A DNA stretch of 64,000 bases from IMG/VR virus record IMGVR_UViG_3300043395_000996, positions 115,991 to 179,990 of that record; one strand, written 5' to 3'. Of this stretch, positions 6,794 through 46,200 are shown one piece after another (the stretch's first letter is position 1; each line of letters opens with the position of its first letter). Both the position numbers and the translations under genes were made by a program. This stretch comes from a virus. The notes under the pieces are model-generated. The model was not told the DNA's origin. It did no database searches and was given only the letters and a program-made list of their open reading frames with translations.

Positions 6794-6798
6794 TTTAA

Positions 6799-7236: not shown

Positions 7237-7242
7237 ATTATA

Positions 7243-7506: not shown

Positions 7507-7513
7507 ATTTTTA

Positions 7514-25218: not shown

Positions 25219-25228
25219 AATTAAAAAA

Positions 25229-26221: not shown

Positions 26222-26227
26222 AATTAA

Positions 26228-26821: not shown

Positions 26822-26827
26822 AATTTA

Positions 26828-26858
26828 CAAAGATACGACATTTATTTGATATTTCCAA
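26828..26858 (-). promoter_or_regulatory. Bacteroidota sigma-A type promoter (TTG-N20-TATCTTTG)
   Basis: TTG (26858-26856), 20 bases, TATCTTTG (26835-26828), then only six bases to the ATG of the 2OG oxygenase gene. It fills the only real gap inside the left part of the carbohydrate locus. Confidence 0.75.
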
Positions 26859-26859
26859 A

Positions 26860-27933
26860 TTAAAATAGTTCCCATTTTAAAATAATATCTTTTACAAATT
26901 TGTTATACATTTTTGCTGAAACATGCCCCAATGGACATCTCCAATCTTCATAATTTTCCAACATTTCATCAAATGTTTTAAATGGTTTATTATTTTTAGA
27001 TTGTTCCATAAACAAAATATTGTGATATTCTTGATTTGTAGATGTATCATTTATATCAAAATTTTTAATAGCCCATTCTGTAACGCCACCATATTTGTGT
27101 ATGTTTTCTTCTTCATAAAACCAAAAAGAATTCCAATCAATTAAATTCCAATAATAATTCAAATATGGATTATCTTTATATCTCATACTATCATTCCAAG
27201 TATTTGGAACATATTTGTTATATAATATTTCATATAATTCATTATGCTTACTATATTCAGGTTTAAATCGTGGAAATCCACCACTTTTTATTAAATTCAA
27301 AACATATGTATCTGAAAAATTATTGGCTATATTAAACATTTTGTATTTAATATTATTTGATTTTAAATACAACTGAAGCATTACAATTGTTTCCAAAAAA
27401 CATAACATTCGTTCTTCGTATGAATGTACCCATCCTAAATTTAAAGCCGCAAATTCCTTCATTGGGTTTTTAATATGTTCCATAAAAAATCCACCTGAAA
27501 GGAAATAATATCCATTTTCACCCATTTCACTTTTTTCTTCTACAAAGTCATTTATATGGGCATAATCATCATCCCACCTTCTTCGATGTTGTGGTAATTT
27601 TAATTTAGGATTTTCTTTTATTTTTGATGGAGAAACAAAAAATGAATTTCTATAAAAAGATGACCATTGAACTATAACCGATATATCGGATGTATCAATT
27701 CCTTCTTTTTTTAATTTTTCTATTTTATAGATAATACTTCTTGCTATTGATTGATTATCATTTGTAACATTTGCAACATTTATTACATTCAAATTTGGAT
27801 TCAGTATTTTTAATTGATGAGAAAAATAATAAATTTCCTTATGGTCCTCATTTAGAATATTATTATCTGTCACATCTATATTGATTCTACCTGCTCTAGT
27901 AAAAGAGCACCCACTTGTTACCAAATGTTTCAT
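26860..27933 (-). CDS. SGNH-like protein, possibly lacking the catalytic Asp
   Basis: 357 residues. Block I is TSGCSFTRAGR. The C-terminal block reads PLGHVSAKMY, so the His is present but the residue two before it is Leu rather than the Asp of the other three copies. Middle sequence includes ISVIVQWSSFYRNSFF, compatible with the superfamily's third block. It is the longest of four SGNH-like proteins here. Its start overlaps the stop of the SDR gene (TAATG). It could be an acyl-binding or degenerate member; the assignment is weaker than for its relatives. Confidence 0.5.
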   Translation of the reverse strand: MKHLVTSGCSFTRAGRINIDVTDNNILNEDHKEIYYFSHQLKILNPNLNVINVANVTNDNQSIARSIIYKIEKLKKEGIDTSDISVIVQWSSFYRNSFFVSPSKIKENPKLKLPQHRRRWDDDYAHINDFVEEKSEMGENGYYFLSGGFFMEHIKNPMKEFAALNLGWVHSYEERMLCFLETIVMLQLYLKSNNIKYKMFNIANNFSDTYVLNLIKSGGFPRFKPEYSKHNELYEILYNKYVPNTWNDSMRYKDNPYLNYYWNLIDWNSFWFYEEENIHKYGGVTEWAIKNFDINDTSTNQEYHNILFMEQSKNNKPFKTFDEMLENYEDWRCPLGHVSAKMYNKFVKDIILKWELF

Positions 27934-28934
27934 TATAATCTACTTTTATATTCTAAAATCGATTTAGTCAAACCTTCCTTTAAAGTAGTTTGTGGTAAAA
28001 TACCATATTTTGTTTGTAATTTAGAACCTAAACATCTAATTGGGTCTCCGTTTGTTTTAGTTTCATCCCAAACAATATTTTTAGTTTTGCCTGTAATTTC
28101 TTTATAACACTCAACAATAGTTTCAATTGTTTCTTTAATAGTTACTGCTTCCGCACATCCAAAGTTGATAATATCTTTAACTTCTTTTTTAACTACATCA
28201 ATTGTAGCCTGTGCAACATCATCACCAAATACAAAATCTCTTTTTGATGAACCATTACCCCAACATACCATATCATCTCCTTCTACATTGAACAATTTCC
28301 AAATATTAGATGAAATTACAGTTGCATCTTGCGCAAAATTATCGTTGATTCCGTAAATGTTTGAAGGTCTAATTACAGTCCAATTATCCCAACCATACTG
28401 AACTTTAAGAGCATCTAATGTAAGTTCTCCCATTCTCTTTGTCCAACCGGGATGCCAATCTAAACGTGATGGAGTTGATGCCCAAGTTTCTTGCTGATTC
28501 CAAATATCTTCTTCGTTCATTACATCTGCCGGCTTATACACTCCAACCGATGATAAATAAACAAACCAATCAACTTTTGCATCAAATGATGCTTTAATCA
28601 TATTGGTATTAAACATTAACATTGGGAATAGGTAATCGGCTGGATTTTGCGATGAACGAGCCGGCGAACCTTTTACACCTGCTATGTGGAGAACAATATC
28701 CATCTTATCCAATGCAAATAATTCTTCGCAATGAGAAAGATATGTCAAATCGGTTTTAACTAAAACCAATCTATCACCACCATATTGAGATTGTAAAAAA
28801 TTTAATTTATCACCAAATTTTAAGTCTACTGCGTAAACTTTTTCGGCTCCTTCTTCTAAACATTTTTTAACTGCCGGGAATCCAACCAATCCGTTTGCTC
28901 CAGTTATAACTACTTTTTTTCCTGTAAATTGCAT
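27933..28934 (-). CDS. NAD-dependent sugar epimerase-like SDR with altered active site
   Basis: 333 residues. Rossmann motif ITGANGLVG at 10-18, IAGVKGS near 84-90 and YLSSVGVY near 126-133 place it among extended SDRs. The active-site line reads HPGWTKRMGE: Lys166 is kept, but the Tyr four residues before it is Pro162, so the usual acid/base is missing. The substrate-binding NIYG and the YGI-x-PQT C-terminal features look intact. It overlaps the GT-like gene by 25 bases and the SGNH gene by one. It may be a dehydratase/epimerase using another residue, or a structural partner. Confidence 0.8.
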   Translation of the reverse strand: MQFTGKKVVITGANGLVGFPAVKKCLEEGAEKVYAVDLKFGDKLNFLQSQYGGDRLVLVKTDLTYLSHCEELFALDKMDIVLHIAGVKGSPARSSQNPADYLFPMLMFNTNMIKASFDAKVDWFVYLSSVGVYKPADVMNEEDIWNQQETWASTPSRLDWHPGWTKRMGELTLDALKVQYGWDNWTVIRPSNIYGINDNFAQDATVISSNIWKLFNVEGDDMVCWGNGSSKRDFVFGDDVAQATIDVVKKEVKDIINFGCAEAVTIKETIETIVECYKEITGKTKNIVWDETKTNGDPIRCLGSKLQTKYGILPQTTLKEGLTKSILEYKSRL

Positions 28935-30238
28935 ATTTCTTTTATTTTTTGTAAACTGTTTGTAAATACATCATAATTTGTAAATGATAGTAAATGATTT
29001 CTATTATATATACATATATCTTTACACGATAAAATCATTTCATTTATTTCATCTATTGATAATTTTGATAATCTTAAAATTTCATCACACACTTTTTTAA
29101 ATCGTATATGGCTATTTTCTTCCTCATCATAACTCTCATCTATTATATGACCGAACGTTTTAAATCCAAGTCTACGAAGTTCAGCCAATTGACCGTTCGA
29201 TGCTATCATTATAAATGGTTGAAAATTTAAAATTGGATGAAATGTTTTTTCTGATATAAAAACCCTATTATTGGTAAATGTTGTCTCGGTGACAATATTA
29301 ATTGCTGTATCTTGATAATATTTTTTATAATAAATTACAGATGTTGGAAAGCTACTTAAAGTATTTTTATTTTTTAAAAAATTTGTATCAATTTCCATTG
29401 GTATTTTTGATAAAAAATTATCATGTATCTCACCATATGAATCAAATTTAGATTGCGGTATAGAATCTATTGCTTGAATTTCTCTTTCTCTTAAATTTAA
29501 AAATGTAAAATACCCTTTATCCCACAAATTGTGCTCTTCTAAAAATAACCCCAATGCATATCTATGTGTTCTATTTACAGTACGATTTAGAGATAAAAAA
29601 TGTTTTTGCTTTTTTATATTAAAAATATCATATCCAACTAATTCATTTTGAAATGAAAATTCATGTCCATCCAATACTTTATTTTTTAAAAAATATTTCA
29701 AAGTTTCTGCTGCATTTTTTATAAAAAAATGGTCTGATATATAATTTAATTCGGATGTGTTTCGTATATTAGCTGCTCCTGAAAATACAAAAAAATTTGT
29801 TATATCTAAATCGTATTTTCTACAAATTCTTTTTATATGCAAATTAAATGTTTCATCATATAATGGTTCGGCAAACCAATTAAATACAACTTTCAATTTT
29901 CCATCTTTTAATTTTTTAAAAGCTTTTTCGGATATATTTTCTATAAATTTATCATAATAATATGCCGGCGGATTAAATGATTCGCACAAATATATTAAAT
30001 TATCTTCATCTATATTTGTAGTAATTAAATTATATTTTTCAGCACATCCTCTATACCCATTTCCTAATAACTTTTCAGGAGACTCTCGTATTTCATAAGT
30101 TGTCCAATTATAATATTCTGAACATTTCTTTTTAAATTCTTCCTTTTCTGATGTTGATAAATTATTTGGTATAACTCTACCAAAATCATCTACATTTTCA
30201 AAATAAAATTTAAAAGGCAATCCACTTTCCAGTTCCAT
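28910..30238 (-). CDS. glycosyltransferase-like protein (paralogue of 22411-23847)
   Basis: 442 residues. Shared blocks with its paralogue: HFLSLNRTVNRTHRYAL (213-229) and VFISEKTFHPILNFQPFIMI (326-345), then GFKTFGHIIDESYD (358-371). The SEKTF-x-PI block resembles GT10-type and related phage glycosyltransferases. The N-terminal 200 residues are not clearly related to its paralogue. It follows the E1-alpha-like gene with a 29-base overlap and precedes an SDR gene, repeating the SGNH/ThDP/GT order seen at 22.4-25.2 kb. Likely a sugar transferase with unknown donor. Confidence 0.6.
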   Translation of the reverse strand: MELESGLPFKFYFENVDDFGRVIPNNLSTSEKEEFKKKCSEYYNWTTYEIRESPEKLLGNGYRGCAEKYNLITTNIDEDNLIYLCESFNPPAYYYDKFIENISEKAFKKLKDGKLKVVFNWFAEPLYDETFNLHIKRICRKYDLDITNFFVFSGAANIRNTSELNYISDHFFIKNAAETLKYFLKNKVLDGHEFSFQNELVGYDIFNIKKQKHFLSLNRTVNRTHRYALGLFLEEHNLWDKGYFTFLNLREREIQAIDSIPQSKFDSYGEIHDNFLSKIPMEIDTNFLKNKNTLSSFPTSVIYYKKYYQDTAINIVTETTFTNNRVFISEKTFHPILNFQPFIMIASNGQLAELRRLGFKTFGHIIDESYDEEENSHIRFKKVCDEILRLSKLSIDEINEMILSCKDICIYNRNHLLSFTNYDVFTNSLQKIKEICNLQEKK

Positions 30239-30839
30239 AATGTGGGAATTTTGATTTATATTTATAATAGATTACATCTTCGGGTATTTCTCTTTTTTTA
30301 TTCCAAGTTGCTTCCGTTGGAGTGTAAGTTGAAACATCGTTATCTTCAACTATAAAGTATAGGGGTAAATCAAAGTTTCTTGCATATTTGTGAACCTCAT
30401 AAAATATACCACTTTCAAAACTCATATCACCAATAAAACACCACACTTTTTCATCACTTCCTTTTTCTTTAATTCCCATTGCTACACCTAATGCAATAGA
30501 AAGAGTTCCACCTACAATAGCAGATGAATAAAACTTTTCATCTATATTACATAATGTGATTGATTTACCTTTAAGAATTTCTTCTTCAATCCAAACAGGA
30601 CAAACTTCTTTGAGTAATGCATGATAATGAGAACGCCATGTACTGAATACCCAATCCGTTGTTTTTATTCTACTAAATATTTCAATCAATTGTTCTTCAT
30701 TACCATTTGATAAATGTATTGGTCCTCTGATTTTGGCATCTTCCCAATGTTTAACAATTAATTCTTCAAATTTAATTAAATCATTTGGCGTTTGTTCTAT
30801 CGACCTTACAATCGGATATTTTTCTAAATTTTGTATCAT
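30210..30839 (-). CDS. ThDP-dependent enzyme, E1-alpha-like diphosphate-binding half
   Basis: 209 residues matching the ThDP-binding domain of dehydrogenase E1 alpha chains. Visible are VFSTWRSHYHALLKEV (64-79; compare YR-x-H in E1 alpha), FYSSAIVGGTLSIALGVAMG (103-122), and the metal/ThDP motif GDM (137-139) with Asn167 (GDMSFESGIFYEVHKYARNF...VEDN). It is much shorter than cellular E1 alpha (about 330-400). The beta-like half is at 23837-24379. It is joined to an SGNH gene by ATGA and to a GT-like gene by a 29-base overlap. Substrate unknown. Confidence 0.8.
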   Translation of the reverse strand: MIQNLEKYPIVRSIEQTPNDLIKFEELIVKHWEDAKIRGPIHLSNGNEEQLIEIFSRIKTTDWVFSTWRSHYHALLKEVCPVWIEEEILKGKSITLCNIDEKFYSSAIVGGTLSIALGVAMGIKEKGSDEKVWCFIGDMSFESGIFYEVHKYARNFDLPLYFIVEDNDVSTYTPTEATWNKKREIPEDVIYYKYKSKFPHYGTGKWIAF

Positions 30840-31606
30840 ATAACTTTTTTTTGTATCAAACTTTTATTTATTAATTTTTTATAAATCATATTAGCAACTA
30901 TATTATGTCCTTCCATAGATAAATGTAAATCATTTTCAGGGCAATTTGGTATATCTGCCAATCTTAATTTATTTTTTTTAGCATATGCTCCTAAATTTTC
31001 TCCTTCAAATTTTATAAAATTATCATTATCTTCAAATTGAGATGAATTTCCATCATATGATAACCACAATGGATAAATATTTTTTTGAATTAACCAATTT
31101 GTATATAAATCAATATTTCTTTCAATGTTTTTTAATGCAATATCTTCATTATAAACAAATGATAAATAATTTGTATAATATTCATGTAATGGTTTATATT
31201 TTTCTTTATTTTCAAATGGTGGTTCTGAAAATTCTATTTTATTTAATTTTTTAAATTCTTTTGTATAATCGTAATAAACATGCTGTCTACTAAATAGTGT
31301 TATTTGACCGATAAACAATATATTTCTATCTGATAGATTTTCTTTTTTAAAATAATCATATGTTTTTTGGAAAATTAAATCATTGGATGACATAGATTCA
31401 GATAAATTGATGTACTCACAATTTAAAATTTTTGCCAAATATGCTATATAATTATTTTCCTTTTTAAATTGCATCGGAATTTCATTTGGCCAAGAATAAT
31501 CAACACCATCAGTTATTTTATTTAAAAACTTATAAATATTTGGATTATCAAGCCCACCACCTTCTGTAAAAGAACATCCTATTCCAACAATTAAATCATA
31601 TTTCAT
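30836..31606 (-). CDS. SGNH-like hydrolase/acyltransferase
   Basis: 256 residues. Block I IGIGCSFTEGGG (nucleophile Ser in GCSFT) lies at the N-terminus, NILFIGQITLFSRQ near 95 and the catalytic pair in ENDLHLSMEGH near 227-237. It overlaps the E1-alpha-like gene by ATGA and the previous SGNH gene by ATGA, so three genes are read as one coupled unit. The superfamily hydrolyses or transfers acyl esters. No secretion signal was seen. It probably acts on an intracellular sugar intermediate. Confidence 0.65.
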   Translation of the reverse strand: MKYDLIVGIGCSFTEGGGLDNPNIYKFLNKITDGVDYSWPNEIPMQFKKENNYIAYLAKILNCEYINLSESMSSNDLIFQKTYDYFKKENLSDRNILFIGQITLFSRQHVYYDYTKEFKKLNKIEFSEPPFENKEKYKPLHEYYTNYLSFVYNEDIALKNIERNIDLYTNWLIQKNIYPLWLSYDGNSSQFEDNDNFIKFEGENLGAYAKKNKLRLADIPNCPENDLHLSMEGHNIVANMIYKKLINKSLIQKKVI

Positions 31607-32436
31607 ATTATATTTTCAGATTTTATTCTTTCATTACTTTTTAATTTATTCAAAATAAAATTAGTAAACCATATGTGTCCATTTTTTGATAAATGGAAAT
31701 CATGTATAGATTTATTACTATCATCCCATATAGTTAATTTCATTTTACGAAATGTAGTAAGCCATCCATAATTATATGTATCCAATCCCGTATGAATTTC
31801 ATCATGTAAATAAAAATTTTCCATAAATGAATAATCATTAAATATATTAAAAAATAAAGGTTGTTTATTTGGAATTTTATCAATTCTTATAGATTCTAAA
31901 TTCCAAAAAATAACATTTTTTACTATTTTTTTATTATGTAAATATTTTGCAATATTACATAAATTTACTATACCTCTCCTATAATAATATGTAGATGGTA
32001 AAATATATTGCATAAAATCTTTACTAGCATTGAATTCAAATTCACTTATAGTATTTCCATCATATGTTTCATAATCTTTTTTAATCATATCATATGTTAT
32101 AGAATCCATTTCATTTAAAAAATACATATATCCATCTGAAACATCTTTTACTTCTTTCTTTTTGTCATAAAAAGGAAATTCATATCGTGTTATAGTACTA
32201 CTTTGTATAATAACAATATCTTCTTCTTTAAAATTTTCTATATTATCCAATATTTTTAATAGAATTCTTTCATTTGGAATACCATTATCGCTGTAATCTT
32301 TTAAATTAAAATTTAATTTATTTGATAAAAGATTTGTCCATTTATAATTCTTATCAGCATTAATGTATTCTGGTATTTCTCCATTCATACCATGCCCTTT
32401 AGTAAAACTATCACCAAATGTCCAAAGTGTAGGCAT
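31603..32436 (-). CDS. SGNH/GDSL-like hydrolase
   Basis: 277 residues and the most canonical of the four: WTFGDSFTKGHG at the N-terminus (true GDS motif), DIVIIQSSTITRYEF near 75-90 and SIHDFHLSKNGH near 250-262 with the Asp/His pair. Aromatic and Asn/Ile-rich, as are its neighbours. Its start overlaps the stop of the RmlC-like gene by one base. Probably an O-acyl esterase or transferase acting in the same sugar pathway. Confidence 0.65.
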   Translation of the reverse strand: MPTLWTFGDSFTKGHGMNGEIPEYINADKNYKWTNLLSNKLNFNLKDYSDNGIPNERILLKILDNIENFKEEDIVIIQSSTITRYEFPFYDKKKEVKDVSDGYMYFLNEMDSITYDMIKKDYETYDGNTISEFEFNASKDFMQYILPSTYYYRRGIVNLCNIAKYLHNKKIVKNVIFWNLESIRIDKIPNKQPLFFNIFNDYSFMENFYLHDEIHTGLDTYNYGWLTTFRKMKLTIWDDSNKSIHDFHLSKNGHIWFTNFILNKLKSNERIKSENII

Positions 32437-32972
32437 TATCTATCTCTTTTTTGTAATATTGGATTATTTGTAGGCCATTCCATTTGAAACTCCGGGTCAT
32501 TCCATTTAACTACACCCTGTTCATCCGCATCTACATATTTTCCATCATAAAATAAATTATAATGAAACATACAATCGGTTAATGCATAATGTCCGTTTGC
32601 AAATCCTGGCGGAACTATTACTTGCTGTCTATTACGTTCTGAAAGGATAAAAGATTCCCACTCACCATAAGTTAGAGAATCATTTCTCATATCTAAAACA
32701 ACTAAATAAATATCCCCCATTACAGCTTGAACTAATTTCCAAGTCTTATTATCCCAATGCAATCCTCTTAATACACCTTTATATGAACGAGAAAATCTTC
32801 CGTGAACTGTAATATTCAATGGTAATTTTAACATTACCGGATGTTCTTCGGTGTGTAATGTTGTAAAAATCTCACCTCTATATTCTCTATAAATCGATGG
32901 TGTATAGATTTCTACTTCATTTCCAAATTTTTTAGATGGAGTAATTTGGAACTCATCCCATTTATTGCTCAT
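32436..32972 (-). CDS. dTDP-4-dehydrorhamnose 3,5-epimerase-like (RmlC family)
   Basis: 178-residue cupin, the usual length for RmlC (about 180). GVLRGLHWDNK carries the catalytic His72. GDIYLVVLDMR, VPPGFANGHYAL (the usual GFAHGF has become GFANGH) and a Tyr near 142 before the KWNDPEFQMEWP ending complete the family pattern. It would epimerise C3 and/or C5 of an NDP-4-keto-6-deoxysugar. It directly follows an SDR gene, forming the classical epimerase pair. No RmlA or RmlB is evident in the window, so the keto-sugar may come from the host. Confidence 0.85.
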   Translation of the reverse strand: MSNKWDEFQITPSKKFGNEVEIYTPSIYREYRGEIFTTLHTEEHPVMLKLPLNITVHGRFSRSYKGVLRGLHWDNKTWKLVQAVMGDIYLVVLDMRNDSLTYGEWESFILSERNRQQVIVPPGFANGHYALTDCMFHYNLFYDGKYVDADEQGVVKWNDPEFQMEWPTNNPILQKRDR

Positions 32973-32973
32973 A

Positions 32974-33945
32974 TTAAAAATTTTGTGCGTATCCTAACGG
33001 GAATCCATTTCTAAATTCTGCTCCCATTTTAGGAACAATCATTTGATATCCCTGAATTAATTGTTTAATACCTCTATCTAAATCCCACTGTGGCTCCCAC
33101 CCAGTCGCTTCTATTTTAGCGTTTGATACGATGTAGTCTCTTTTATCGGGGTCCTCATAAAAATCGTTGTATGATACCGCAAAATCCTTTACATGATATT
33201 GTATCTTTTCCAACAATTCTTGCTTTGATAAATTTGCAGAACTCAACCCAACATTGAATACTTCACCTTTATATTCATCATAATTTTTTAACATAAAAAG
33301 AAACGCAGATGCCACATCCTCAACGTGAATGAAATTTCTTTTAAAATTCTTTTCAAACACAACAATGTATTTATCGGTAATTGCTTTGTAAGTAAAATCA
33401 TTTACTAACAAATCCGTTCTCATACGAGGAGATACACCAAATACAGTTGCTAATCTAAATATGATTGCATCGGTTGAAGTTCTTAAAAAATTTTCTGCAT
33501 CACACTTTGTTTGGCCATAAACTGATATAGGCGTTAGTGGTGATTCTTCTGTACACTCTGTTTGTCCTTCTGCAATACCATATCCACTATTTGTGTTTGG
33601 GTATAAAATTTTCTTACCTTTTCCGTTAGTAAATCTAACAATATTAAGAATTTGATGGAAGTTAATTTGTTTTGCTAATTCCGGCTCTGCTGCACATGCG
33701 GGAAATCCTACAATTGCTGCTAATGGAATAATTACATCGGCATCATTACATAGTTTTTCTAATAAAGATTCATTACGAACATCTCCGTGTATGAATTTAA
33801 AATTAGAATCAGATGTGTATTGTAAAAGTGAAGTTTGATTAAACAACAATTTATCCAATACCACAACTTGATATCCCATATTTAATAGTTTTCCAACTAT
33901 AACCGAGCCTAAATATCCAGCTCCACCTGTAACTAATACTTTCAT
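32974..33945 (-). CDS. NAD-dependent sugar epimerase/reductase (extended SDR)
   Basis: 323 residues. VTGGAGYLGS at the N-terminus (NAD-binding), GDVRNESLL near 54-62, LAAIVGFPAC near 75-84, and an intact SVYGQTK catalytic site (Tyr143, Lys147). Of the three SDRs in the locus this one has a normal active site. It lies one base before the RmlC-like gene and overlaps the LamG gene by one base. Probably a nucleotide-sugar 4-epimerase or 4-reductase. Confidence 0.9.
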   Translation of the reverse strand: MKVLVTGGAGYLGSVIVGKLLNMGYQVVVLDKLLFNQTSLLQYTSDSNFKFIHGDVRNESLLEKLCNDADVIIPLAAIVGFPACAAEPELAKQINFHQILNIVRFTNGKGKKILYPNTNSGYGIAEGQTECTEESPLTPISVYGQTKCDAENFLRTSTDAIIFRLATVFGVSPRMRTDLLVNDFTYKAITDKYIVVFEKNFKRNFIHVEDVASAFLFMLKNYDEYKGEVFNVGLSSANLSKQELLEKIQYHVKDFAVSYNDFYEDPDKRDYIVSNAKIEATGWEPQWDLDRGIKQLIQGYQMIVPKMGAEFRNGFPLGYAQNF

Positions 33946-34680: not shown

Positions 34681-36081
34681 CTATAACTTTATTGTTTTTG
34701 TAAAATGGTAAAATTCTTCTAATTCAGGGAATGTTTTGCAAAAATCAGTTCCTCTTCTTTTATCATGCTCACTAAAATATTGATAGAAATTGTATCTCGC
34801 TTTAAACAATGCACTATCTTCAATTGGAGAAATAGCCCAATCATATGTTCTTTTTAGCTTTTGAATTTCTAAATCAGAAAATCCAACATATCCTTTTGAA
34901 TAATATGGAATTCCGTGATAGAATGCTAATTGAGCTTGGTCTAAAATATTTTGCTTAAACTGATGTGGTAATACCTGAACAGTTTGATGACGAGGATGTC
35001 TTAAATAAGATGTATCCATCAATACAGGCGATAACCAATATCTATCATCTCCAGCATATTCTCTTTTTAATTCATACACTCCTTTGATAAATTTATCAAA
35101 ACTAAATACCGATAACATATTATATGTTACCATAAATGTAATAGTAATTTTCGGAACTTCTCTTAAAATTCTATTTACGTTATTCCAAAATCTATTAAAC
35201 TCTAAACCATTACGAATATATTCAGCTTGCTCCCCCCAACCATCACACGATGTAAATAATACAAATCCCTTTACTTTATCTTCTTCTGTAATTCTTTTTA
35301 GCTTTTCAATTAATTTTGTAATCAATTCATCCGGTACACCTAAATTTGAATTGATAGAAAAATCTAAATTTTTATTTGGATTTGGTTCATCAATGATATA
35401 ATCTAATACTTTCCAAGTATCTTTGTGCATCAATGGTTCACCACCCGTAATTCTAAATGTATGTAAATCTCTATACAAATCAGGCCACCATTTCCAAAAT
35501 GCTTCTACATAAGGATTATGTTCTCTCAATGGAATTGGCATCTTTTGTTCAGCTGCCAAATGTTTTAAATCGTTAAAACTATCTGTCGTTGGGTATCCAC
35601 CAAATTGCTGAATCTCTTCCATCCATTTTGTAGAGAAAGTTGGTGAACAATATGAACATGCGAAGTTACAAGCATTTGAAAACGCAACTTCAACATAGCG
35701 TGGGTTAAAGTCATCTCTCCAATTTGAATTAATAATTTGGTCTGCTAAAGGCCAGCTCCAATCTTCCGATGATTTAAATACTCTATCCGAATATAAATCC
35801 GAATTATCTTCTACACCCCAACAATAATCACATTCCGTAGGTCTAGCACCATTCATCATCTCTTTTCTTTTTTGCTTTTTAAATAAAGTATTGTGAAGAG
35901 CAGATGGGTTTCGTGCAATCTCTAATTCAGAAACTTTATGAGTGTTTGGGTGGTGACAAGAGTGATTGTGACCTGTGTGTAAATGTGTTGTAACTTGTGT
36001 CCATTTTGCTAAACACATTCCCTTACCCACATTATCTAATTTTGTCTTTACTTCTTCGTAAAGTGGTTTTTTATATGCCAT
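34681..36081 (-). CDS. radical SAM protein, twitch type
   Basis: 466 residues. The radical SAM cluster motif is CNFACSYC (Cys138, Cys142, Cys145), followed by FRITGGEPLMHKDTW (SAM-binding GGE) near 213-227. N-terminal CLAKWTQVTTHLHTGHNHSC and CDYCWG (Cys84, Cys87) add extra cysteine sites, as in twitch-domain radical SAM proteins of T4-like cyanophages. It could carry out a radical modification of a sugar or peptide; substrate unknown. It lies between the two GT7-LamG genes and the stand-alone LamG gene, overlapping the former by 11 bases. Confidence 0.85.
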   Translation of the reverse strand: MAYKKPLYEEVKTKLDNVGKGMCLAKWTQVTTHLHTGHNHSCHHPNTHKVSELEIARNPSALHNTLFKKQKRKEMMNGARPTECDYCWGVEDNSDLYSDRVFKSSEDWSWPLADQIINSNWRDDFNPRYVEVAFSNACNFACSYCSPTFSTKWMEEIQQFGGYPTTDSFNDLKHLAAEQKMPIPLREHNPYVEAFWKWWPDLYRDLHTFRITGGEPLMHKDTWKVLDYIIDEPNPNKNLDFSINSNLGVPDELITKLIEKLKRITEEDKVKGFVLFTSCDGWGEQAEYIRNGLEFNRFWNNVNRILREVPKITITFMVTYNMLSVFSFDKFIKGVYELKREYAGDDRYWLSPVLMDTSYLRHPRHQTVQVLPHQFKQNILDQAQLAFYHGIPYYSKGYVGFSDLEIQKLKRTYDWAISPIEDSALFKARYNFYQYFSEHDKRRGTDFCKTFPELEEFYHFTKTIKL

Positions 36082-37489
36082 AACCTATTGTTTTAACGTT
36101 AATCATCTTATGTCTATTATAAATAGTATCAATTGATAAAAGTTCGTAATTCATACTATTAATTCCGTCATTTTTATAATTTATTTCTCCTTGCTGCATT
36201 TGTAAAACGTATCTTCTTTCGTTTCTTGCAGTTGTTTCACCTTTTGCCCATTTATCGATTCCACCTTCTTTTATCAATCCCTCCGTTTGGTGTGGTAAAC
36301 ATAAAAATTTACCATCTCTTCTATATGGTAAAATGGTATGTGGAATTTGTATTTGCTCTTTAACTATTTCTACATTTTCTAAATTTTCCAATTCATCATC
36401 AAAATCATAATCCAATATTAATCCATTTTGTGGAATTTGTTTGTGCATATTTTTGATTTCAGTTTTACCCAAACATCTATCCCACATTTTGATATCAGAA
36501 ATATATCCTTTAAAAAATACTTCGGTTGGTGATTTGGAATAACCAATTGTAAATGGCTCCATACCATATCTTTTCAATGGTTCATTAAAAAATAATGGAG
36601 ATTGTGTGCCAGTTCCTAATCTCGCATCACTTTCTCTACCATTCAAATAAAAATGTATTTTCTTTTTTTCAGAATCAACTGACATTGTAACCCAACTCCA
36701 TTGATTTTCATATCGTTTAATCCATTGGTATAAATGCCCTTTCATTCTATCCCAAAGTTGCATTGTATATGCTCTACTATTATTAAAAGATAATCCCCAA
36801 TCGTAACCAGGTTTTCTAAATATAGGATATTCTATAAATTGTCTTTCCCCATCCCCAATTAACCAAATTGGAACTTTTTCTATTTGCTGGTCTGCTTTTA
36901 CTAATACTGAAATTGTGTGAGAATTGGATAAACATTCTTTTAATTCTCTAGTTGGTCTATAAGTTGCTTTTGCATTTTCTCCATTAAAATATCCAACAAA
37001 CTTTTCTTCATTATATTCCAATTCCGTTTTTTCAACATAACCCTCCATCACACATCTCCAAAAAAGGTCATCATCTTCCATACCCCAATCCCAATAATCG
37101 TTTGAATAACCATTAGTTTTCTCCACTTGTTCTTTTGAAAAAATAACTGCTCCACCAAAGTATTCTTCATACTTTAATTGATAATCTGATTGTGAGATAC
37201 GAACTGCTATATGTTGTGGGTTATCGGTTGGAAACGAATAATCACAACTATCATCTTCCGGCACCATATCAATATCATGCCAAACGATGTAATCACATCC
37301 ATCATCGAATGCATGCTTAGCTGCAATGTTTTTCATTAAACCTCTATTAAAGAGTTTATCATCACATTGATGTGCTAAATAAATTGTATGCTCAATTCCT
37401 CTTTCTTCTAAAAATTTAGTAACGTGAGGAACAAACACTTTTAAATGTTCTTCTCTATTTCTATATGGAACGCATACTCCTAATTTCAT
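36071..37489 (-). CDS. GT7 galactosyltransferase fused to LamG-like lectin domain
   Basis: 472 residues. The N-terminal about 175 form a beta-1,4-galactosyltransferase-like GT7 domain: VPYRNREEHL (7-16), HDIDM metal motif (71-75), FGGAVIF (111-117) and WDWGMEDDD (133-141). A beta-sandwich LamG-like region spans about 188-345 (WSWVTMSVDSEKKKIHFYLN then GYISDIKMWDRCLGKTEIKN), and a C-terminal part again looks enzyme-like (PYRRDGKFLCL). Vertebrate-type GT7 enzymes are secretory, but this one has no signal. It overlaps its paralogue by one base (TAATG). Transfers a hexose onto an unknown acceptor. Confidence 0.85.
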   Translation of the reverse strand: MKLGVCVPYRNREEHLKVFVPHVTKFLEERGIEHTIYLAHQCDDKLFNRGLMKNIAAKHAFDDGCDYIVWHDIDMVPEDDSCDYSFPTDNPQHIAVRISQSDYQLKYEEYFGGAVIFSKEQVEKTNGYSNDYWDWGMEDDDLFWRCVMEGYVEKTELEYNEEKFVGYFNGENAKATYRPTRELKECLSNSHTISVLVKADQQIEKVPIWLIGDGERQFIEYPIFRKPGYDWGLSFNNSRAYTMQLWDRMKGHLYQWIKRYENQWSWVTMSVDSEKKKIHFYLNGRESDARLGTGTQSPLFFNEPLKRYGMEPFTIGYSKSPTEVFFKGYISDIKMWDRCLGKTEIKNMHKQIPQNGLILDYDFDDELENLENVEIVKEQIQIPHTILPYRRDGKFLCLPHQTEGLIKEGGIDKWAKGETTARNERRYVLQMQQGEINYKNDGINSMNYELLSIDTIYNRHKMINVKTIGYGI

Positions 37490-38901
37490 TATATACCAAC
37501 ATTTATTATTCTAATATTTTTATCTAATTTTTTAACACCATGTTCAATAAATTCTAAAGTAGATAATCCATCGTTTTTTAATAAATTATCATCATTACTA
37601 ACTTCATTTACAAATCTCAATTGATTCCATCTCGTACATTCATTTTTCCATTTATTATCAACAAATCCATTTTCTTCGTGTTTTAACGATTGAAATCTAC
37701 ATTTTTTTCTAAATGGTATTAAGTGATTTATTGATTGCGGTTCATTTGATTCGACAATTTCACAAGCTACAATTTCTGCATAATTTTTATTTCCAGATAA
37801 ATCTTTTAATCTATATTCATCTATTTTAGATGCATCATAATACATTTTTAATGATGTAGATTTTTGAATAGTTTCATCTAATTCAGTTCCTAATTTGTAA
37901 ATTTTATCATCAGATAAAACATCATCAAAATATGCGAATGATTTAAAATATCCTTTAAAAAAATTTGGAATTTTAATTCTTTCGGGATTTCCCACTCCAA
38001 TATAACAATTATTAACTATTTTATAATCTATTAAAAATTTTCGTATTTGAGCCGTTTCCCCTATATAAATTCCGTCTTGATAAACTTTTATTACTTTATC
38101 ATTTGCATCATATACAATTGTTATGTTTGTTAAATAATTTGGCTTTATTTCTGAATTTACAAAATGAGAATTCAGTTTATAATCAAATGCGCAAAAATTA
38201 TATCTATGAAAAGATGTATATGATATAGCAAAATCATATCCGGGTATACTGAATATAGTAAACTCATCGGATTCTTTTTTATGGTCTAATTTTAAATCAT
38301 CTGGGCAAAATGTAACGGATATTGTAAAATGATAATTGAAATCTATTACATTTTTTATTTTTATATGAGAGTCGATTCCATTAAGTTTTAATAATTTTCT
38401 ATTACCTATATTTTTAAAAATTTTAGAATCCAAAGATACATTATTCTTTTTGCATCTTAACAATAAATCATCATCTTCATACCCCCATCCCCAATACTTA
38501 TTTGAATAACCATCTATATTTTCAAAAATTTCGGTTGGAAACATAGTTACGCCACCAAAATATGTATCAAATATTTCTCTGTTTTTTTCTCCTTGAGAAT
38601 AATAAAAATTAGTAGCTAAATGTAATGGAATATGTGAATATGTGTAATCCACACTTAATGGAATCATATCCACATCGTGAAATACTACATAATCACATTT
38701 TAATTTTTTTGCATAAGTAAATCCAATATTAAGAAGCATACCACGATTGAATAATTTAGCATCATCTTGTTCAACTATTATTAATTCATAATCGATACGA
38801 CCATTATTGAAATAATTAACCAATGCTTGTTTAAATACTTCTAAATGTTCGTATCGATTTCTATATGGTACAATAATCCCTAATTTGTGATTACTACTCA
38901 T
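37489..38901 (-). CDS. GT7 galactosyltransferase fused to LamG-like domain, paralogue
   Basis: 470 residues, same layout as its neighbour: VPYRNRYEHL (11-20), HDVDM (75-79), FGGVTMFP (115-122), WGWGYEDDD (137-145), then a LamG-like domain (TNITIVYDANDKVIKVYQDG, then GYFKSFAYFDDVL) and a final PFRKKCRFQSL block. The DxD and WGWGxEDDD motifs are intact, so it should be active. It is AT-richer and more diverged than the other copy, consistent with an old duplication. It overlaps the upstream small gene by 8 bases. Confidence 0.85.
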   Translation of the reverse strand: MSSNHKLGIIVPYRNRYEHLEVFKQALVNYFNNGRIDYELIIVEQDDAKLFNRGMLLNIGFTYAKKLKCDYVVFHDVDMIPLSVDYTYSHIPLHLATNFYYSQGEKNREIFDTYFGGVTMFPTEIFENIDGYSNKYWGWGYEDDDLLLRCKKNNVSLDSKIFKNIGNRKLLKLNGIDSHIKIKNVIDFNYHFTISVTFCPDDLKLDHKKESDEFTIFSIPGYDFAISYTSFHRYNFCAFDYKLNSHFVNSEIKPNYLTNITIVYDANDKVIKVYQDGIYIGETAQIRKFLIDYKIVNNCYIGVGNPERIKIPNFFKGYFKSFAYFDDVLSDDKIYKLGTELDETIQKSTSLKMYYDASKIDEYRLKDLSGNKNYAEIVACEIVESNEPQSINHLIPFRKKCRFQSLKHEENGFVDNKWKNECTRWNQLRFVNEVSNDDNLLKNDGLSTLEFIEHGVKKLDKNIRIINVGI

Positions 38902-39159: not shown

Positions 39160-39996
39160 CTATATTTTAACTATTTCATTTATTAATGAATTCCATTGAC
39201 AATACGAACCAACACCCGATTTTTCTATTTTAAATTCGGGATTGGTAATGTCAATTTCAAAATTATTTCTCCTAATAGCTTGATACATTTTTAAATATTC
39301 TTTTGAAAATGCGTAATCCTTTCTAATATCAGCAACTGCTTTTATTCTTTCTACACAAGTACTATCCCATTTGAAATGATGTACCTGAACACTATACTCA
39401 TCTATTGGTGCAATTAATTTATTATCCGATTGTGGGCCCCAAAGAACTTCTCCATTTACTTTTGCATAATGCTGTCCATTGGTAATTTCAACATATCCTT
39501 TCATTACGCAAATTTTATTTGGACATGCTCCACTTAATGGGTATCTAAAGAATCCTGCTAATGGAAATTGTTCAAATATATTTTTATAAGGTTGTATTTC
39601 AGGAAAACTCCCACCTTCCCCAATTCTATCTACGAATCCACCTCTTACAATATCCCATCCATTTGTTTCACAATCTTCTATTAAAAATGGTAATGGCATT
39701 GGATACATATGAAATTCATCATCGTCTGCTATAACCCACCAATCATCGGGGTATTGTGATTTTATTTCATTATATAATTCAGTTACAACTTCCCAATTAA
39801 ACTTTTCTCTTTTTTCAACTTTTACAACTTTTGCTGATGGGAAATTTTCTAATATTTTTCCAACTTCTGCTAATATGTTAGTACCTTCCCATTCATATAC
39901 GACAACAAACATTTCATCAACTATGTGTCGATAATGATTCAACATATGCCAAAGTGTATTTGTGCGAGAACCCGTAACAGTTAATAATCTAGTCAT
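39160..39996 (-). CDS. glycosyltransferase, GT-A type (GT2/GT92-like)
   Basis: 278 residues. It starts LLTVTGSRTNTLWHMLNHYR, has a WWVIADDDEFHMYPMPLPFL metal-binding block (ADDDEF 90-95) and a conserved HHFKWDSTCVERIKAV region near 206-222. The pattern of a loose N-terminal nucleotide-binding half plus an ADDDEF motif fits phage GT-A enzymes of the GT2/GT92 type. It ends just before the host-type promoter and lies one base after the methyltransferase gene. Sugar specificity unknown. Confidence 0.75.
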   Translation of the reverse strand: MTRLLTVTGSRTNTLWHMLNHYRHIVDEMFVVVYEWEGTNILAEVGKILENFPSAKVVKVEKREKFNWEVVTELYNEIKSQYPDDWWVIADDDEFHMYPMPLPFLIEDCETNGWDIVRGGFVDRIGEGGSFPEIQPYKNIFEQFPLAGFFRYPLSGACPNKICVMKGYVEITNGQHYAKVNGEVLWGPQSDNKLIAPIDEYSVQVHHFKWDSTCVERIKAVADIRKDYAFSKEYLKMYQAIRRNNFEIDITNPEFKIEKSGVGSYCQWNSLINEIVKI

Positions 39997-40758
39997 TTAT
40001 TTTTTTGTTAGTATGCATAACCCAGTAGATGTAGGTAATTTGCCACTAAAGATACGAAAATTTTTTAAATTAACCAAATTCCATTCATCATTTTTTTCTA
40101 ATTCTTTTACAAATTTTGCAGGCCCATCAAAAGGTGCAAAATCTTTTTTAGCACTTTCGGTTACAACAAATGTATTATGATATTGTTGGTCTGTATCGTG
40201 GATTGTGATAATTCCATTTTCAGCCATTATTTGTGAATACAATTCAAAATCCTTTTTAACACCTTCGTATGAATGGTCGCCATCTATGTGTAAATAGTCA
40301 ATTTTAATATCTTGTCTTACGAAGTAATCATAAAATGCTTTTTCAGAAGTTTCTAAAATTATTTGCGGAGAGAAGTGTTGCCTTAAAAAAGAATTTTCAG
40401 AAGTCCAATCGGTAAATCCGCCAACACCATTTGCCGCATCTACTACTATTGTAGTTCCAACATCACCCCATTCATTTTGTGGATTCCCTTCGAATATTTT
40501 TTGGTGCCACAAATCTACACGAGATTGAGTCATAAGTCGTGGAATAAATCCACCACCGCTACCAATACATACGCATACTTTTGCTCTGATGAATTGTATT
40601 AAAGAATATACCATTAACCCATCACCCAAATGTAAATCGGTTGCACCATGTGTCCATCGATAATTTATTGGTGTATGAACTATATTACCATCTTCATCGA
40701 TGATATGATTATTGGTTAAATAATCTTTAACTATATTTAAATTGATAAGACTTTGCAT
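39997..40758 (-). CDS. class I SAM methyltransferase (Methyltransf_24-like)
   Basis: 253 residues from the ATG at 40758 (MQSLINLNIVKDY); a TTG start five codons earlier is possible. Motif I is VCVCIGSGGGF (61-71). The family-defining segment is IDYLHIDGDHSYEGVKKDF (153-171), followed by GIITIHDTD. Relatives are O-methyltransferases often found in glycan clusters. It overlaps the upstream glycosyltransferase gene by 22 bases. May methylate the sugar made by this locus. Confidence 0.8.
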   Translation of the reverse strand: MQSLINLNIVKDYLTNNHIIDEDGNIVHTPINYRWTHGATDLHLGDGLMVYSLIQFIRAKVCVCIGSGGGFIPRLMTQSRVDLWHQKIFEGNPQNEWGDVGTTIVVDAANGVGGFTDWTSENSFLRQHFSPQIILETSEKAFYDYFVRQDIKIDYLHIDGDHSYEGVKKDFELYSQIMAENGIITIHDTDQQYHNTFVVTESAKKDFAPFDGPAKFVKELEKNDEWNLVNLKNFRIFSGKLPTSTGLCILTKK

Positions 40759-41717
40759 ATTTGAATAACCCAATTTTGTTTATTTGTATATTTTTCTAAT
40801 CCTTTTTTTAATCTGTCAAATTGTTTTTTATTTTTTTCAAATCCATCTTCTAATATTCTTAAATATTGATAATTGAATTGTTTTTTATTCATTGCTCTAT
40901 ATCGATATTTAATATCTTTCATCCAATCTGAATGTATTATAGGTAATTTACCATTATCAATTGCATCAAAGATTGCATAACCAAATGGTTCTTTTGTATA
41001 ACATCCGTGAAATATTTTGAAATCTTTTTCAAAGAATTTATAATGAAAACGATAATCAAATTCTATGAATGTATGTACATCTGCGTTTATCTTACTACCC
41101 TCCAACATTCGTTTGTAATCGTATTTGTTTGAGAATATAAAAGCAGGTATTCCATCCAAATAATGTGCGTTTTTTCTCGTTTCACATCTTGCGGCATATC
41201 CTACTTTATTACTTACTACATCCGTATATGGTTTGTTGTGTTTCCATTCATAATAATTTGTAATAGTAATTGTATTCGGAAAATAGGTATGAATAGTATC
41301 TTTTTCATAACCTATCCAAACTATATTTTTAGAATTGTCCAAAATATCCTTTTGCCAATGCCAATCTAATCTTGTCATTAGATTTTCATACTCATCATTT
41401 AATCCCAACATATCAGGTATGAAAGCATGAACAAATGTTGTGTGAGTTTTATGTAGATACTTTTTGATTATAGGATTTGGTTTATAAGAATGATGTAAGA
41501 ATACAATCTTATCACACTCATTTAATATCCTATCTATTTCATCATCGTTTTGGTAAGTGTATATTGCACCTTTTTCTGGCAACAAAGGTCTACCATCAAC
41601 TACAATTTTGTAATCTTCCGTAACTAATGGTAAAACGTTCTCTACAAAGTTGTTACACCATATATCCGAACCCCCTACTACATTTTTTCCGTAACCAGTT
41701 GTTATGAATACTATCAT
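40737..41717 (-). CDS. glycosyltransferase, GT-B fold (GT4-like)
   Basis: 326 residues. N-terminal VFITTGYGKNVVGGSDIW (glycine-rich donor loop), middle VGYAARCETRKNAHYLDGIP near 172-191, and the GT4-type donor-binding block FHGCYTKEPFGYAIFDAIDN then GKLPI (236-260; Glu243 and Asp251 occupy the E-x7-E positions). First gene of the carbohydrate locus in reading order, 12 bases after the adhesin gene ends. The locus is thus transcribed as a continuation of the tail-fibre genes. Confidence 0.75.
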   Translation of the reverse strand: MIVFITTGYGKNVVGGSDIWCNNFVENVLPLVTEDYKIVVDGRPLLPEKGAIYTYQNDDEIDRILNECDKIVFLHHSYKPNPIIKKYLHKTHTTFVHAFIPDMLGLNDEYENLMTRLDWHWQKDILDNSKNIVWIGYEKDTIHTYFPNTITITNYYEWKHNKPYTDVVSNKVGYAARCETRKNAHYLDGIPAFIFSNKYDYKRMLEGSKINADVHTFIEFDYRFHYKFFEKDFKIFHGCYTKEPFGYAIFDAIDNGKLPIIHSDWMKDIKYRYRAMNKKQFNYQYLRILEDGFEKNKKQFDRLKKGLEKYTNKQNWVIQICKVLSI

Positions 41718-41729: not shown

Positions 41730-43277
41730 TTAATTAATTGGTAATGAACTACCATCGCATTTAATTGCATCATATAATGTAGCACCATCCCAATACCTAA
41801 TCCATGCTCCATCTGAATAATATCCGAAACCGGGTGAGCCTGTTCCATTTGAATTCAAATGAAATTCGGTTGCCAATTTCCAACTACTATCATTCGGTCC
41901 TATGTAATAGGTACTTGTTGTAGAATTACATGCCGTTTGTGCATCGCCATCTACCCCCAAATATACTTCAGGATAATATACATACCCACAATCTGTTGAA
42001 TTTGTTTGAATATCTACCCAAATAATACCACAATTTCCATCATAATATCTTTGTTGTTTTGTAGTTCCACTACAACGATAATCGCTTGGAGATGTACCAG
42101 CTGGTCCATATCCTGGACATGCTACTGGGCAATTTTGTCTAGATGAAAATGGTTGAACAGTATTACCTGAATACGGCTTACCAACCGCAACGTATCTTCC
42201 ATTATATGATATCCACCCAATAATACTTCCCATTCCATATGAACTAAATGCTACAGACGTAAATGTACTTGCATTTTCAAAAGTAGCACCTTGTGGCATT
42301 TCTACTTCAATACCACTACCAATATCACATCCTCCATTTGTTCCGCTTGGTTCACCCCCATCATTTACACTTTTAAATCTAACTGATAGTAAATTTGGAG
42401 CAGGTGGTAGATTGAATGTTATTTCATTGAAACTTACAACATTTCCAGCATTATCTGCTAAAAAAGGTATATATGAACCATTTGCCAAATTGTATATATA
42501 ATCACCGATTGCTCTTTGAGTTGCATCTGTATTTAAATACCAATAATATCCAGCCCCACTACCTCCACTAGCAGTTGCAACTCTAATGTATCCTGAACCA
42601 GCATATCCTCCACCCGATTGAACTGTTCCTGTCAATGATGGGTAATTACAACTAATTGCAAATGAATATAAATTTTGAGTATTGCCAACACTATCTCTAA
42701 TTTGTATCATCCATGCGCCGTTTGATAATATTGCACCCGTAGTACCCGTACCGCTTATCCAATTAGAATACGATGAATCAGGTTCAGATTCTAATTTATA
42801 TCTAAAGCTATATGGTGCTCCACTACCACCACTATACGATGAAACATTTATATAACCTTTATTTGGTGCTTGAGTTTGACAACCATATGTTGTAGATGCT
42901 GATAAATATAATGTACACGTTCCGTTTGCATTTGCATATGCTTGTCCTTCTGAATTAAAATTTGCATCACCACTTGCCAATGAGTTTGCATTTGCTTGTG
43001 AAATATATGAAGTATAAGTTTTTGAATAAGTAACACTACTTGCGGTATATCCAGCTGAACAATTGTTTCTTGTAAACGTACCACTTCTTGTTGCTGTCCA
43101 ATATTGAGATGATTTACCTCTAAATTCTAACATTTGTAAATCATTAGTACCATCGGTTGTATATGAAACCGCATATGCAGTTCCTGCTGCAGCTAAATCT
43201 ATTTGAGTACCAGATGCAATATTTCTATCGGTATTAAATAGATTCATTGATATTTCGCCAGTATTAGGAATTGCCAT
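41730..43277 (-). CDS. tail adhesin with DUF5977 and SprB-like repeats
   Basis: 515 residues. The start MAIPNTGEISMNLFNTDRNI is shared, in my recollection, by tail proteins of Bacteroidota phages. Residues about 67-121 match DUF5977 (FTRNNCSAGYTASSVTYSKT, then GQAYANANGTC). Two SprB-like repeats follow (about 133-205 and 213-290: GGSGAPYSFRYKL..., GGSGAGYYWYLNT...; each ends in a NGxW/NGSY, D-x-x-GN strand). A Cys-rich C-terminal region follows. These are Bacteroidota surface-adhesin modules. Probably the receptor-binding tip; it overlaps the S74 fibre gene by one base. Confidence 0.75.
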   Translation of the reverse strand: MAIPNTGEISMNLFNTDRNIASGTQIDLAAAGTAYAVSYTTDGTNDLQMLEFRGKSSQYWTATRSGTFTRNNCSAGYTASSVTYSKTYTSYISQANANSLASGDANFNSEGQAYANANGTCTLYLSASTTYGCQTQAPNKGYINVSSYSGGSGAPYSFRYKLESEPDSSYSNWISGTGTTGAILSNGAWMIQIRDSVGNTQNLYSFAISCNYPSLTGTVQSGGGYAGSGYIRVATASGGSGAGYYWYLNTDATQRAIGDYIYNLANGSYIPFLADNAGNVVSFNEITFNLPPAPNLLSVRFKSVNDGGEPSGTNGGCDIGSGIEVEMPQGATFENASTFTSVAFSSYGMGSIIGWISYNGRYVAVGKPYSGNTVQPFSSRQNCPVACPGYGPAGTSPSDYRCSGTTKQQRYYDGNCGIIWVDIQTNSTDCGYVYYPEVYLGVDGDAQTACNSTTSTYYIGPNDSSWKLATEFHLNSNGTGSPGFGYYSDGAWIRYWDGATLYDAIKCDGSSLPIN

Positions 43278-46200
43278 TATTTATTTTTTAATTCGTTTAT
43301 TTCGTTTTTTAATTCTTTTATAGCTTCAATTAAAAGTGGAACTACTTTTTCATATCTAACAGCTAAATATCCATCTTTTCTCTCAACAACAACTTCGGGT
43401 AAAACTTCTTTTATTTGTTGTGCGATAACGCCAACATCATGCTTTTTAACTAAAAGATTTGCATCAGGGTCATCTCCAATATGTTCTTGCATATATTCTT
43501 CAGTCCAATCAAATTCTACACCATTTAATTTATCAATTTTCTCCAATGCATTTTCAATAGGAATAATATTTTCTTTTAATCTTTCATCCGATGATGCATA
43601 TGCTATGATATTTCCTGTAGCTGATAAATCTCCTCCAATTTTAACATATGCTCCACTAAATGTACTTCTATCAATTCTAAAATATTTATCGGTTGCATTA
43701 ACTACTTGAAATCCTTTATCGGTAATTTCAGTTGCTTCTACCGATGAACCCAATGAAACATTTGAAGCGGAGCTACTTTTTGAATAAAATTGAGTAGTAG
43801 CAGTTGTATTACTATATAGAGTTCTATTCCAAACCAATCTTGCATAATATGTGCCAGATGTTGGTGCTGAAAATGCTATTGGATTTGTTGCAGCTGCTAT
43901 TGAAACTGTTCCTGCACTACTTATACCACCACTACTAATTGTACCATATCCGAGTATATTATTGAATCCGGCATCCGATGCTATTTGCCAAGCTACACCA
44001 ACATATAAATATCCACTCCATCCACCAGGGGTAGTTGCAACCCCACCAACTGCTGACATCGATATTGTTCCACTATATGTACCTCCGGCAGGTACACTAA
44101 ATGAAAAAGATGTACCATATAAAGATTGAGAACCTATATTTGATACCGCATCTGACCAAGAAAAGAAATTATAACTAGCAAATGGTATGCTTATACTATT
44201 ACCTGCTCCCAAATTCGTTAAATCACCTGCTCTTATTGTTAATTTTGGATTACCAGATGTATCATTTACAGCAATCAATGGTGATGGTGAAAATATTAAT
44301 CTACTATATCCACTACCATCTGGTGGTGAAGATAATTTATCAGGATTAATATTCCATCCACCAATTGTTCCTTGCGTAAATGTTGCAGTTTTACCTGTAA
44401 AATTCAATGCAGAAATATGAGAAGCATCTAAAGTATTTGCAACAACTTTACCCGTTGTAATAGAGTTATCATCTATATATGTGGCGTTTACACTATTCAA
44501 TGTTGATAATGTGCCCAATCCACTAACCTTTGTATTTGGAACAGTAACACCAGGTTGTAAAGTCAATGATGTTGCGGTTATTCCACCATTAATAGCTAAC
44601 GTACTACCATCAAATGTTAATTTATCACCTAATGAAAATATATTAGTAGAACCCGATTTAAAATAGAATGGTGTATTAGAATTATTATATGTACCAGTTC
44701 CAACATATATTGCTTTATTAGTACCATCCAATGTTATACCACCACTACCTACTTTTAAAACATTTGAAATATACCCATTTGCTCCTGCTATGACAGGTGA
44801 TATTATACTATCATTACTAATCAATGTACCACCATTGTATGAACCATTTGCTATACTATCCGCAATTGATTTTGCATTATTATATGCTACAGATGCCGAT
44901 AATGCTGCGTTTGAACCGGCAATCGAAGCTGCTGCTGAACCTGATGAAACTGCATTTGAACCGATAGTATTTGCATAAGTTTGAGTTGCCGCATTACCAC
45001 CTGTTACATTTATTGTTCCATTAACAGTCAGTGCACTACCATTCCAAAGTAACTGGTCTTTTAGTGAAAATTTGCCAGAACTATCCAAATAAACCGATGT
45101 ATCTGTATTATTGTAATTACCTACTCCTATGTATATTTTACGAGTTGTAGTTCTTGCATCTAAATTTATTTGCTGTGCAGATGTATCGCCAACTGTAAAT
45201 AATTCCTTTATGTATCCAACTTGCCCACCAATCGCAGGAGAATAAATTACAGTATCTCCTATAAATGAACCACTAAATTGACCATTTGCTAATTGTTGAA
45301 CTTTGGATAATGATGATGATAATATTAATACATTTGAAGCACTTACAGATGAACTTAATGATGTAATCGAAGATGATACTGAACCACTCAATGTTACAAT
45401 AGTTCCACTAACCGATGAACTTACATTTGTTAAACTGCCACTAATAGAACCACTCGTTACAACAATAGTTCCACTAATAGAAGATGATACGGCATATAGT
45501 TCTGCTAATGATGATGATTGAGATGCGCTTATAAAAATTAATGTTCCACCTAAATTATTATTACCACCGGTAAATAATGCAGATTGTGTTACGGCAACCG
45601 GCACATAGTTATTATTTACATCATAAAATTCAAAATTGAATTCATATGTTTCATTACCAATTACAGTTGGCATAGATGTTACAAATTCAATTTCGGATGG
45701 AGAAAACGCACTATCTTGTGTCAATTTTAAACTAACATTTCCTAAATGCCATTCGTTTTGTGATTGTGAGAAATATAAACTAGCCGTTGGCTCTGCTTTA
45801 GGTAAACTAAATTGAATTATTTGGTCTTTTAAATTTTTAGTAGGTGTTATACCATTTAAAGTTCCAATTAAATATTCACCATTATTAGAACCACTAATAT
45901 AAATTTCCAAATCACTTTCGGTTGATGCAGAATAAAAAGCATCCAATCCCAATTCATATACACTAACATCGGATAAATTCAAAGATGAACTATATTTGAA
46001 TTTACCAGCTCCATTTAATTTAACACCATTATCAATACGGCTTGATGTTAATTCAGTAGTTACACCATCTACAATCCATAATTTTTCTAAAGTTTCCGAT
46101 GTGAATAATCCACCATTACCAACTACACTACCACTCAACTCATAGGTTGATAATAATTCCTTTGATTCAACTAAAATATCTTGTATTAAATCGGAATCGG

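Follow-up and report, generated by a model that had tools for sequence, protein, structure and literature searches.

The characterised glycosyltransferases of CAZy family GT7 are mainly animal enzymes, among them B4GalT1 and B4GalT7. GT27, the family of the polypeptide N-acetylgalactosamine (GalNAc) transferases, is a different one, and its lectin domain has a ricin-type fold. That domain steers acceptor choice and is joined to the catalytic domain as a separate unit by a flexible linker (PMC4432651); in lactose synthase, the acceptor specificity of B4GalT1 is altered by a partner, alpha-lactalbumin, which is a separate protein (PMC6198961). As for viruses, chloroviruses glycosylate their virion proteins with virus-encoded enzymes independently of cell organelles (PMC7826918), and the host recognition cluster of pelagimyophages is a T4-like island of tail fibres, several glycosyltransferases and radical S-adenosylmethionine (SAM) cassettes, in which GT8 is the most represented family and for which the passages dealing with the cluster mention neither GT7 nor a nested LamG domain (PMC7029224). 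Here we analyse two tandem genes, GT7b and GT7a, in a window of 64,000 nucleotides (positions 115,991 to 179,990 of the 179,990-base virus record IMGVR_UViG_3300043395_000996; coordinates below are those of the window). Their products are GT7-type proteins that carry a LamG-like domain within the catalytic domain. They may thus work like the GalNAc-transferases and like lactose synthase, but they share the layout of neither: the additional domain has a LamG fold and is nested, not linker-joined, and it is built in, with a putative effect on specificity, instead of being a separate partner.

Both genes are intact open reading frames on the minus strand, where the genes of the glycan island and the adjacent tail-fibre gene also lie, which bears out the original prediction of two intact tandem GT7 genes in a phage. 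GT7b (P0002; 37489..38901, 470 aa) is the upstream gene of the pair and is transcribed first, followed by GT7a (P0001; 36071..37489, 472 aa); for each the open reading frame, Pfam matches and an AlphaFold2 model are available. The stop codon of GT7b and the start codon of GT7a overlap in the sequence TAATG, and GT7a shares 11 nt with the next gene, which encodes a radical SAM protein; these overlaps suggest a translationally coupled operon. The record encodes a T4-type major head protein, portal, prohead protease and terminase, the head protein being closest to that of Microcystis phage Mel-JY01 (56%) and then to that of Flavobacterium phage immuto (53%).

Glyco_transf_7N and Glyco_transf_7C match both proteins far above the cut-off (Pfam, E values from 2e-17 to 2e-21), with PF13733 and PF02709 exceeding their curated cut-offs in both, and GT7 profiles are present in each of 60 aligned relatives of GT7a and 60 of GT7b (120/120 rows, E <= 0.01). 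Both sequences also match B4GalT1 and B4GalT7 in the PDB with E values of 1e-23 to 1e-30. The AlphaFold2 models (predicted local distance difference test scores of 89.5 for GT7a and 92.3 for GT7b) superimpose on B4GalT1 over essentially their whole length in VIA-align, GT7a over residues 1..471 (Z 27.4, 217 aligned, 2.2 Å) and GT7b over residues 1..470 (Z 26.2, 216 aligned, 2.6 Å). The phage proteins thus have in common with the animal enzymes the fold of the entire catalytic domain as well as the DxD motif, the Trp loop, the WGWGxEDDD motif, the metal-binding His and the donor Tyr; they differ in the LamG domain that precedes the lid and in having neither a transmembrane anchor nor a stem. 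Phylogeny placed them in no other glycosyltransferase family, and the assignment to GT7 stands.

The LamG-like stretch comprises about 225 residues and in both models folds as a beta-sandwich of the LamG, or concanavalin A-like, type, as expected from the original prediction. In GT7a it spans residues 161-384 (36338..37009), which on their own match the LamG domain of PAPP-A with a Z of about 21 over 194 aligned residues; in GT7b residues of about 167-395 (37717..38403) match 4dqa, PAPP-A and pentraxins, the Z values for the two inserts ranging from 17 to 21. Laminin_G_3 is found in GT7a with an E value of 1.7e-10 and in GT7b with 1.8e-5, the latter slightly under the curated cut-off, and it recurs in 60 of 60 relatives of GT7a and 56 of 60 relatives of GT7b. 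The original prediction was of a fusion of LamG to GT7; the domain is indeed present, but it is situated within the transferase and not behind it. The Pfam GT7 matches stop near residue 151-157, and the metal-ligand His and the C-terminal 'DGL/DGINSxxY' segment appear only past residue 384-395. Accordingly divided, the catalytic domain of GT7a consists of an N-terminal segment (residues 1-160, 37010..37489; DID 72-74, Tyr110, WDWGMEDDD) and a C-terminal segment (residues 385-472, 36074..36337; Cys397, His400, Asn423, DGI), and that of GT7b of residues 1-166 (38404..38901; DVD 76-78, Tyr114, WGWGYEDDD) and 396-470 (37492..37716; His408, Asn426, DGL). The N-terminal segments were delimited by the Pfam 7N/7C matches and by conservation, the C-terminal ones by alignment and VIA-align and, for GT7a, also by phmmer, in which a second stretch (residues 438-455) falls on the B4GALT1 C-terminus, a match that is not significant alone. 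Viral GT7 proteins that lack the insert (L150-L154) align across the insertion site, their 'YRDGTFIALDH' corresponding to 'YRRDGKFLCLPH' after the LamG domain in the phage proteins. Moreover, the gap between the N- and C-terminal segments measures -1 to 7 residues in those bacterial GT7 proteins in which both segments were found, as against 232-254 in the phage type, contigs from metagenome-assembled genomes (MAGs) included. Since GT7 sequence resumes beyond the insert according to phmmer, alignment and models alike, a C-terminal LamG fusion is ruled out, and the predicted structures and the alignments give very good support to a LamG domain that interrupts the catalytic domain of GT7 at a site between the helix with the WxWGxEDDD motif and the His that binds the metal.

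Counted from EDDD and back from the metal-binding His, the insertion site corresponds to about residues 333-340 of the bovine and 329-336 of the human enzyme. The lid of human B4GalT1 comprises residues 338-365, its C-terminal helix contacts the acceptor, and in a modelled B4GalT1 dimer residues 328-334 are near the acceptor N-acetylglucosamine (PMC6198961). In sequence terms this puts the insert on the acceptor side, and we infer from the alignments that it directly precedes the mobile lid, the part of the enzyme by which the acceptor site is formed.

The active-site motifs, predicted to be complete from the outset, are complete and conserved among relatives: HDIDM and WDWGMEDDD in GT7a, HDVDM and WGWGYEDDD in GT7b. 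The DxD motif and the equivalents of E317/D318 and H347 are invariant in all 60 aligned rows of either set, whereas the residue corresponding to D319 is variable among GT7b sequences (D in 37, T in 14 and N in 9); the position of Met344 is Cys in 60/60 rows of GT7a, and in those of GT7b it is mostly Ser or Leu. Human Tyr285 of B4GalT1 is a donor-specificity residue (PMC6198961). Its equivalent (bovine 289) is Tyr in 60 of 60 GT7a and 59 of 60 GT7b sequences. Because Tyr at this position of GT7 enzymes favours uridine diphosphate galactose (UDP-Gal) over UDP-GalNAc, UDP-Gal would be the preferred donor. Judged by sequence, GT7a and GT7b are most likely cytoplasmic UDP-Gal-type transferases, activity, donor, acceptor and lectin function being what we infer for them.

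By sequence, GT7 is not the mainly animal family that the characterised enzymes suggest, for it is common in bacterial genomes. Bacterial GT7 proteins of Chlamydiota, Elusimicrobiota, Bacteroidota and Pseudomonadota possess both the N- and the C-terminal segment, with identities of up to 48%, but they differ in that the two segments are contiguous, without an insert. GT7 folds of viral origin occur in giant viruses (a Megaviridae sample, Mimivirus LCMiAC01, an Aureococcus virus), the best two matches being proteins of 258 and 315 aa with a GT7 match of ~150-160 columns; with GT7a as the query, none of the 50 BFVD matches listed is closely similar across GT7 and LamG jointly. NCBIfam holds no family for GT7a or GT7b, and in the open-access literature searched we found no description of a GT7 combined with LamG, of a phage GT7 or of an inserted lectin.

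GT7a and GT7b are only ~30% identical and fall into separate clades with supports of 100/99 and 100/97 in a tree of 161 columns of the GT7 N-terminal segment; the analysis covered only three sequences from animals and 40 loci from genomes. A recent tandem duplication is ruled out by the low identity together with the separate supported clades. The three animal sequences lie outside both phage clades and the deep branches lack resolution; a close animal origin by transfer is not supported by these sequence comparisons. Profile comparison shows the inserts of GT7a and GT7b to be homologous (HH probability 99.8%). A single origin of the LamG insert is compatible with the tree, as the approximately unbiased test does not reject it (p-AU 0.319), but it is not demonstrated by it.

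Among uncultured viral contigs, 227 stretches are related to GT7a and 75 to GT7b, numbers that denote loci and not phages as the two sets overlap and some contigs are counted repeatedly. The tandem pair (<=60 nt apart) is present in 120 of 154 GT7-bearing uncultured viral loci, and the core order methyltransferase, GT2, GT7b, GT7a, radical SAM is kept in most. Related neighbours were counted in 156 loci with limited flanks: GT2-like genes in 143, radical SAM genes in 137 and methyltransferase genes in 109, the sugar-nucleotide genes further down being more variable (nucleoside diphosphate (NDP)-sugar epimerase in 52 loci, RmlC in 29). About 30 loci contain a third, divergent GT7-LamG gene upstream of the pair (for instance L043:785-2275, L030:785-2236 and L034:774-2252); in that of L043 the DxD motif has been lost, so that its product, by its sequence, may be a pseudo-enzyme. 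LamG-inserted GT7 genes are also carried by MAG contigs (L157-L162, L171), and the pair occurs on contigs of a Flavobacteriales-named MAG in which several Gp23 genes are found as well. These MAG contigs are probably phage contigs binned with bacteria, a reading for which the Gp23 genes argue indirectly and for that one MAG only. Neither GT7a nor GT7b has a match among 50,697 isolate phage records, and no annotated glycan island lies between primase/SbcC and terminase in Mel-JY01 or immuto. In Mel-JY01 (L197, PP395634.1) the place between primase/SbcC and terminase, which the glycan island occupies in the GT7 phage, contains a gene (4750-8430) whose large product bears the annotation FkbM methyltransferase.

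Upstream of the pair lie genes for a GT2-type glycosyltransferase (39160..39996; Glyco_tranf_2_4, E 0.0018, under the cut-off) and a methyltransferase (39997..40773; Methyltransf_24, Pfam E 9.7e-11). Downstream, GT7a is followed by the gene for the twitch-domain radical SAM protein (P0004; 34681..36081), which reaches 354 bits against NF033640 (cut-off 170) and has only weak isolate-phage matches, in Vibrio phages. This gene is adjoined by one for a stand-alone, accessory LamG-like protein (P0003; 33945..34679; HH 95.7-98% to the LamG inserts), orthologues of which were found in 16 loci only. The rest of the glycan island (22411..33945), annotated with Pfam and NCBIfam, contains three genes of the short-chain dehydrogenase/NDP-sugar epimerase type, an RmlC-like epimerase, a 2-oxoglutarate (2OG)-Fe(II) oxygenase, DUF6071-like proteins and the split halves of a thiamine pyrophosphate (TPP)-dependent enzyme, Transket_pyr and E1_dh (23837-24379 and 30210-30839), which are 6 kb apart. 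Just outside the island, 16949-22249 encodes a protein of 1766 aa with an N-terminal cytidylyltransferase-like domain. At its other end the island adjoins the gene for a large tail-fibre-like protein with an S74 endosialidase chaperone (43277..46876; Peptidase_S74, E 1.6e-16, tail-fibre PHROGs), with a DUF5977 protein encoded in between (41730-43277).

How may these enzymes act in the infected cell? The explanation that we favour, with roughly even confidence, is that GT7a and GT7b form a GT7 pair with LamG docking that glycosylates a phage-made cytoplasmic acceptor. Both would be soluble, cytoplasmic, metal-dependent inverting glycosyltransferases of GT7 type, and GT7b and GT7a would probably move galactose or a close hexose from a UDP-sugar successively, the GT2 transferase, the methyltransferase and the radical SAM enzyme presumably belonging to the same pathway. 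The product would most likely decorate an acceptor made by the phage in the cytoplasm, for which the adjacent S74 tail fibre is the best candidate, and LamG would keep the acceptor, a glycan or glycoprotein, beside the active site; that it holds the growing glycan, as proposed originally, is plausible. We prefer a cytoplasmic acceptor to a lipid-linked, exported one because a scan of 21 genes at 22.4-43.3 kb found no clear membrane segment, with just three marginal peaks, in the TPP-enzyme, epimerase and methyltransferase proteins. A rather unlikely variant would make the nested LamG an acceptor-specifying module that completes or reshapes the lid pocket for a fibre glycoprotein, a covalent counterpart of alpha-lactalbumin; the two enzymes and the radical SAM enzyme would then constitute a line dedicated to virion glycosylation and widespread among uncultured T4-like phages. 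Several observations weigh against glycosylation of a phage-made acceptor with the help of LamG. In a region rich in islands, adjacency to a fibre gene counts for little, host enzymes could act as flippase and lipid carrier, and the ligand of a LamG fold is often a protein and not a sugar. In addition, conservation is lower in LamG than in the GT7 part of both sets, with mean pairwise identities of 55% vs 73% in the GT7a set and 45% vs 59% in the GT7b set.

The main rival, possible although clearly less probable, is that the same enzymes modify the O-antigen or capsule of the host, leading to receptor masking or superinfection exclusion, with LamG docking the host polysaccharide. The glycosyltransferases of the comparable tail-fibre/radical SAM island of pelagimyophages have been read in this way (PMC7029224), and the RmlC-like and NDP-sugar epimerase genes of our island are of a kind found in O-antigen clusters. 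On the other hand, no gene of the island clearly codes for an integral membrane protein, a flippase, a polymerase or an initiating transferase; as the host could supply flippase and lipid carrier, however, the absence of membrane proteins still leaves room for a modification of the host surface.

It is about equally conceivable, and hence likewise the less probable view, that the GT7 transferases are active while their LamG domain has no carbohydrate role and is either passive or binds protein, for oligomerisation or as a tether to the fibre or a partner enzyme. LamG domains are commonly protein-binding, PAPP-A, no simple lectin, is among the nearest solved structures, and the two paralogues nearly always occur together. 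Then again, 4dqa, also among the closest folds, carries the title of a putative carbohydrate binding protein, and the sequence puts the insertion on that side of the active site where the acceptor is bound. Finally, glycosylation of modified phage DNA bases after the manner of the T4 glucosyltransferases, to which the presence of a 2OG-Fe(II) oxygenase beside glycosyltransferases in one island of a T4-like phage might point, is very improbable because a single PF00303 protein was found in the record and this one is, judged by the solved structures nearest to it and by its LPFN motif, a true thymidylate synthase and not a deoxycytidine monophosphate hydroxymethylase, and besides, GT7a and GT7b match enzymes with sugar acceptors whereas DNA glucosyltransferases are of the GT-B type.

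Galactosyltransferases that are soluble and have a docking domain built in could be of use in glycoengineering. The finding itself is that of a lectin-like domain inside the catalytic domain of a glycosyltransferase, on its acceptor side, in a widely distributed family of uncultured phages, and it opens the questions of how acceptor choice is built into GT7 enzymes and whether the fibres of T4-like phages receive glycans from phage-encoded enzymes.

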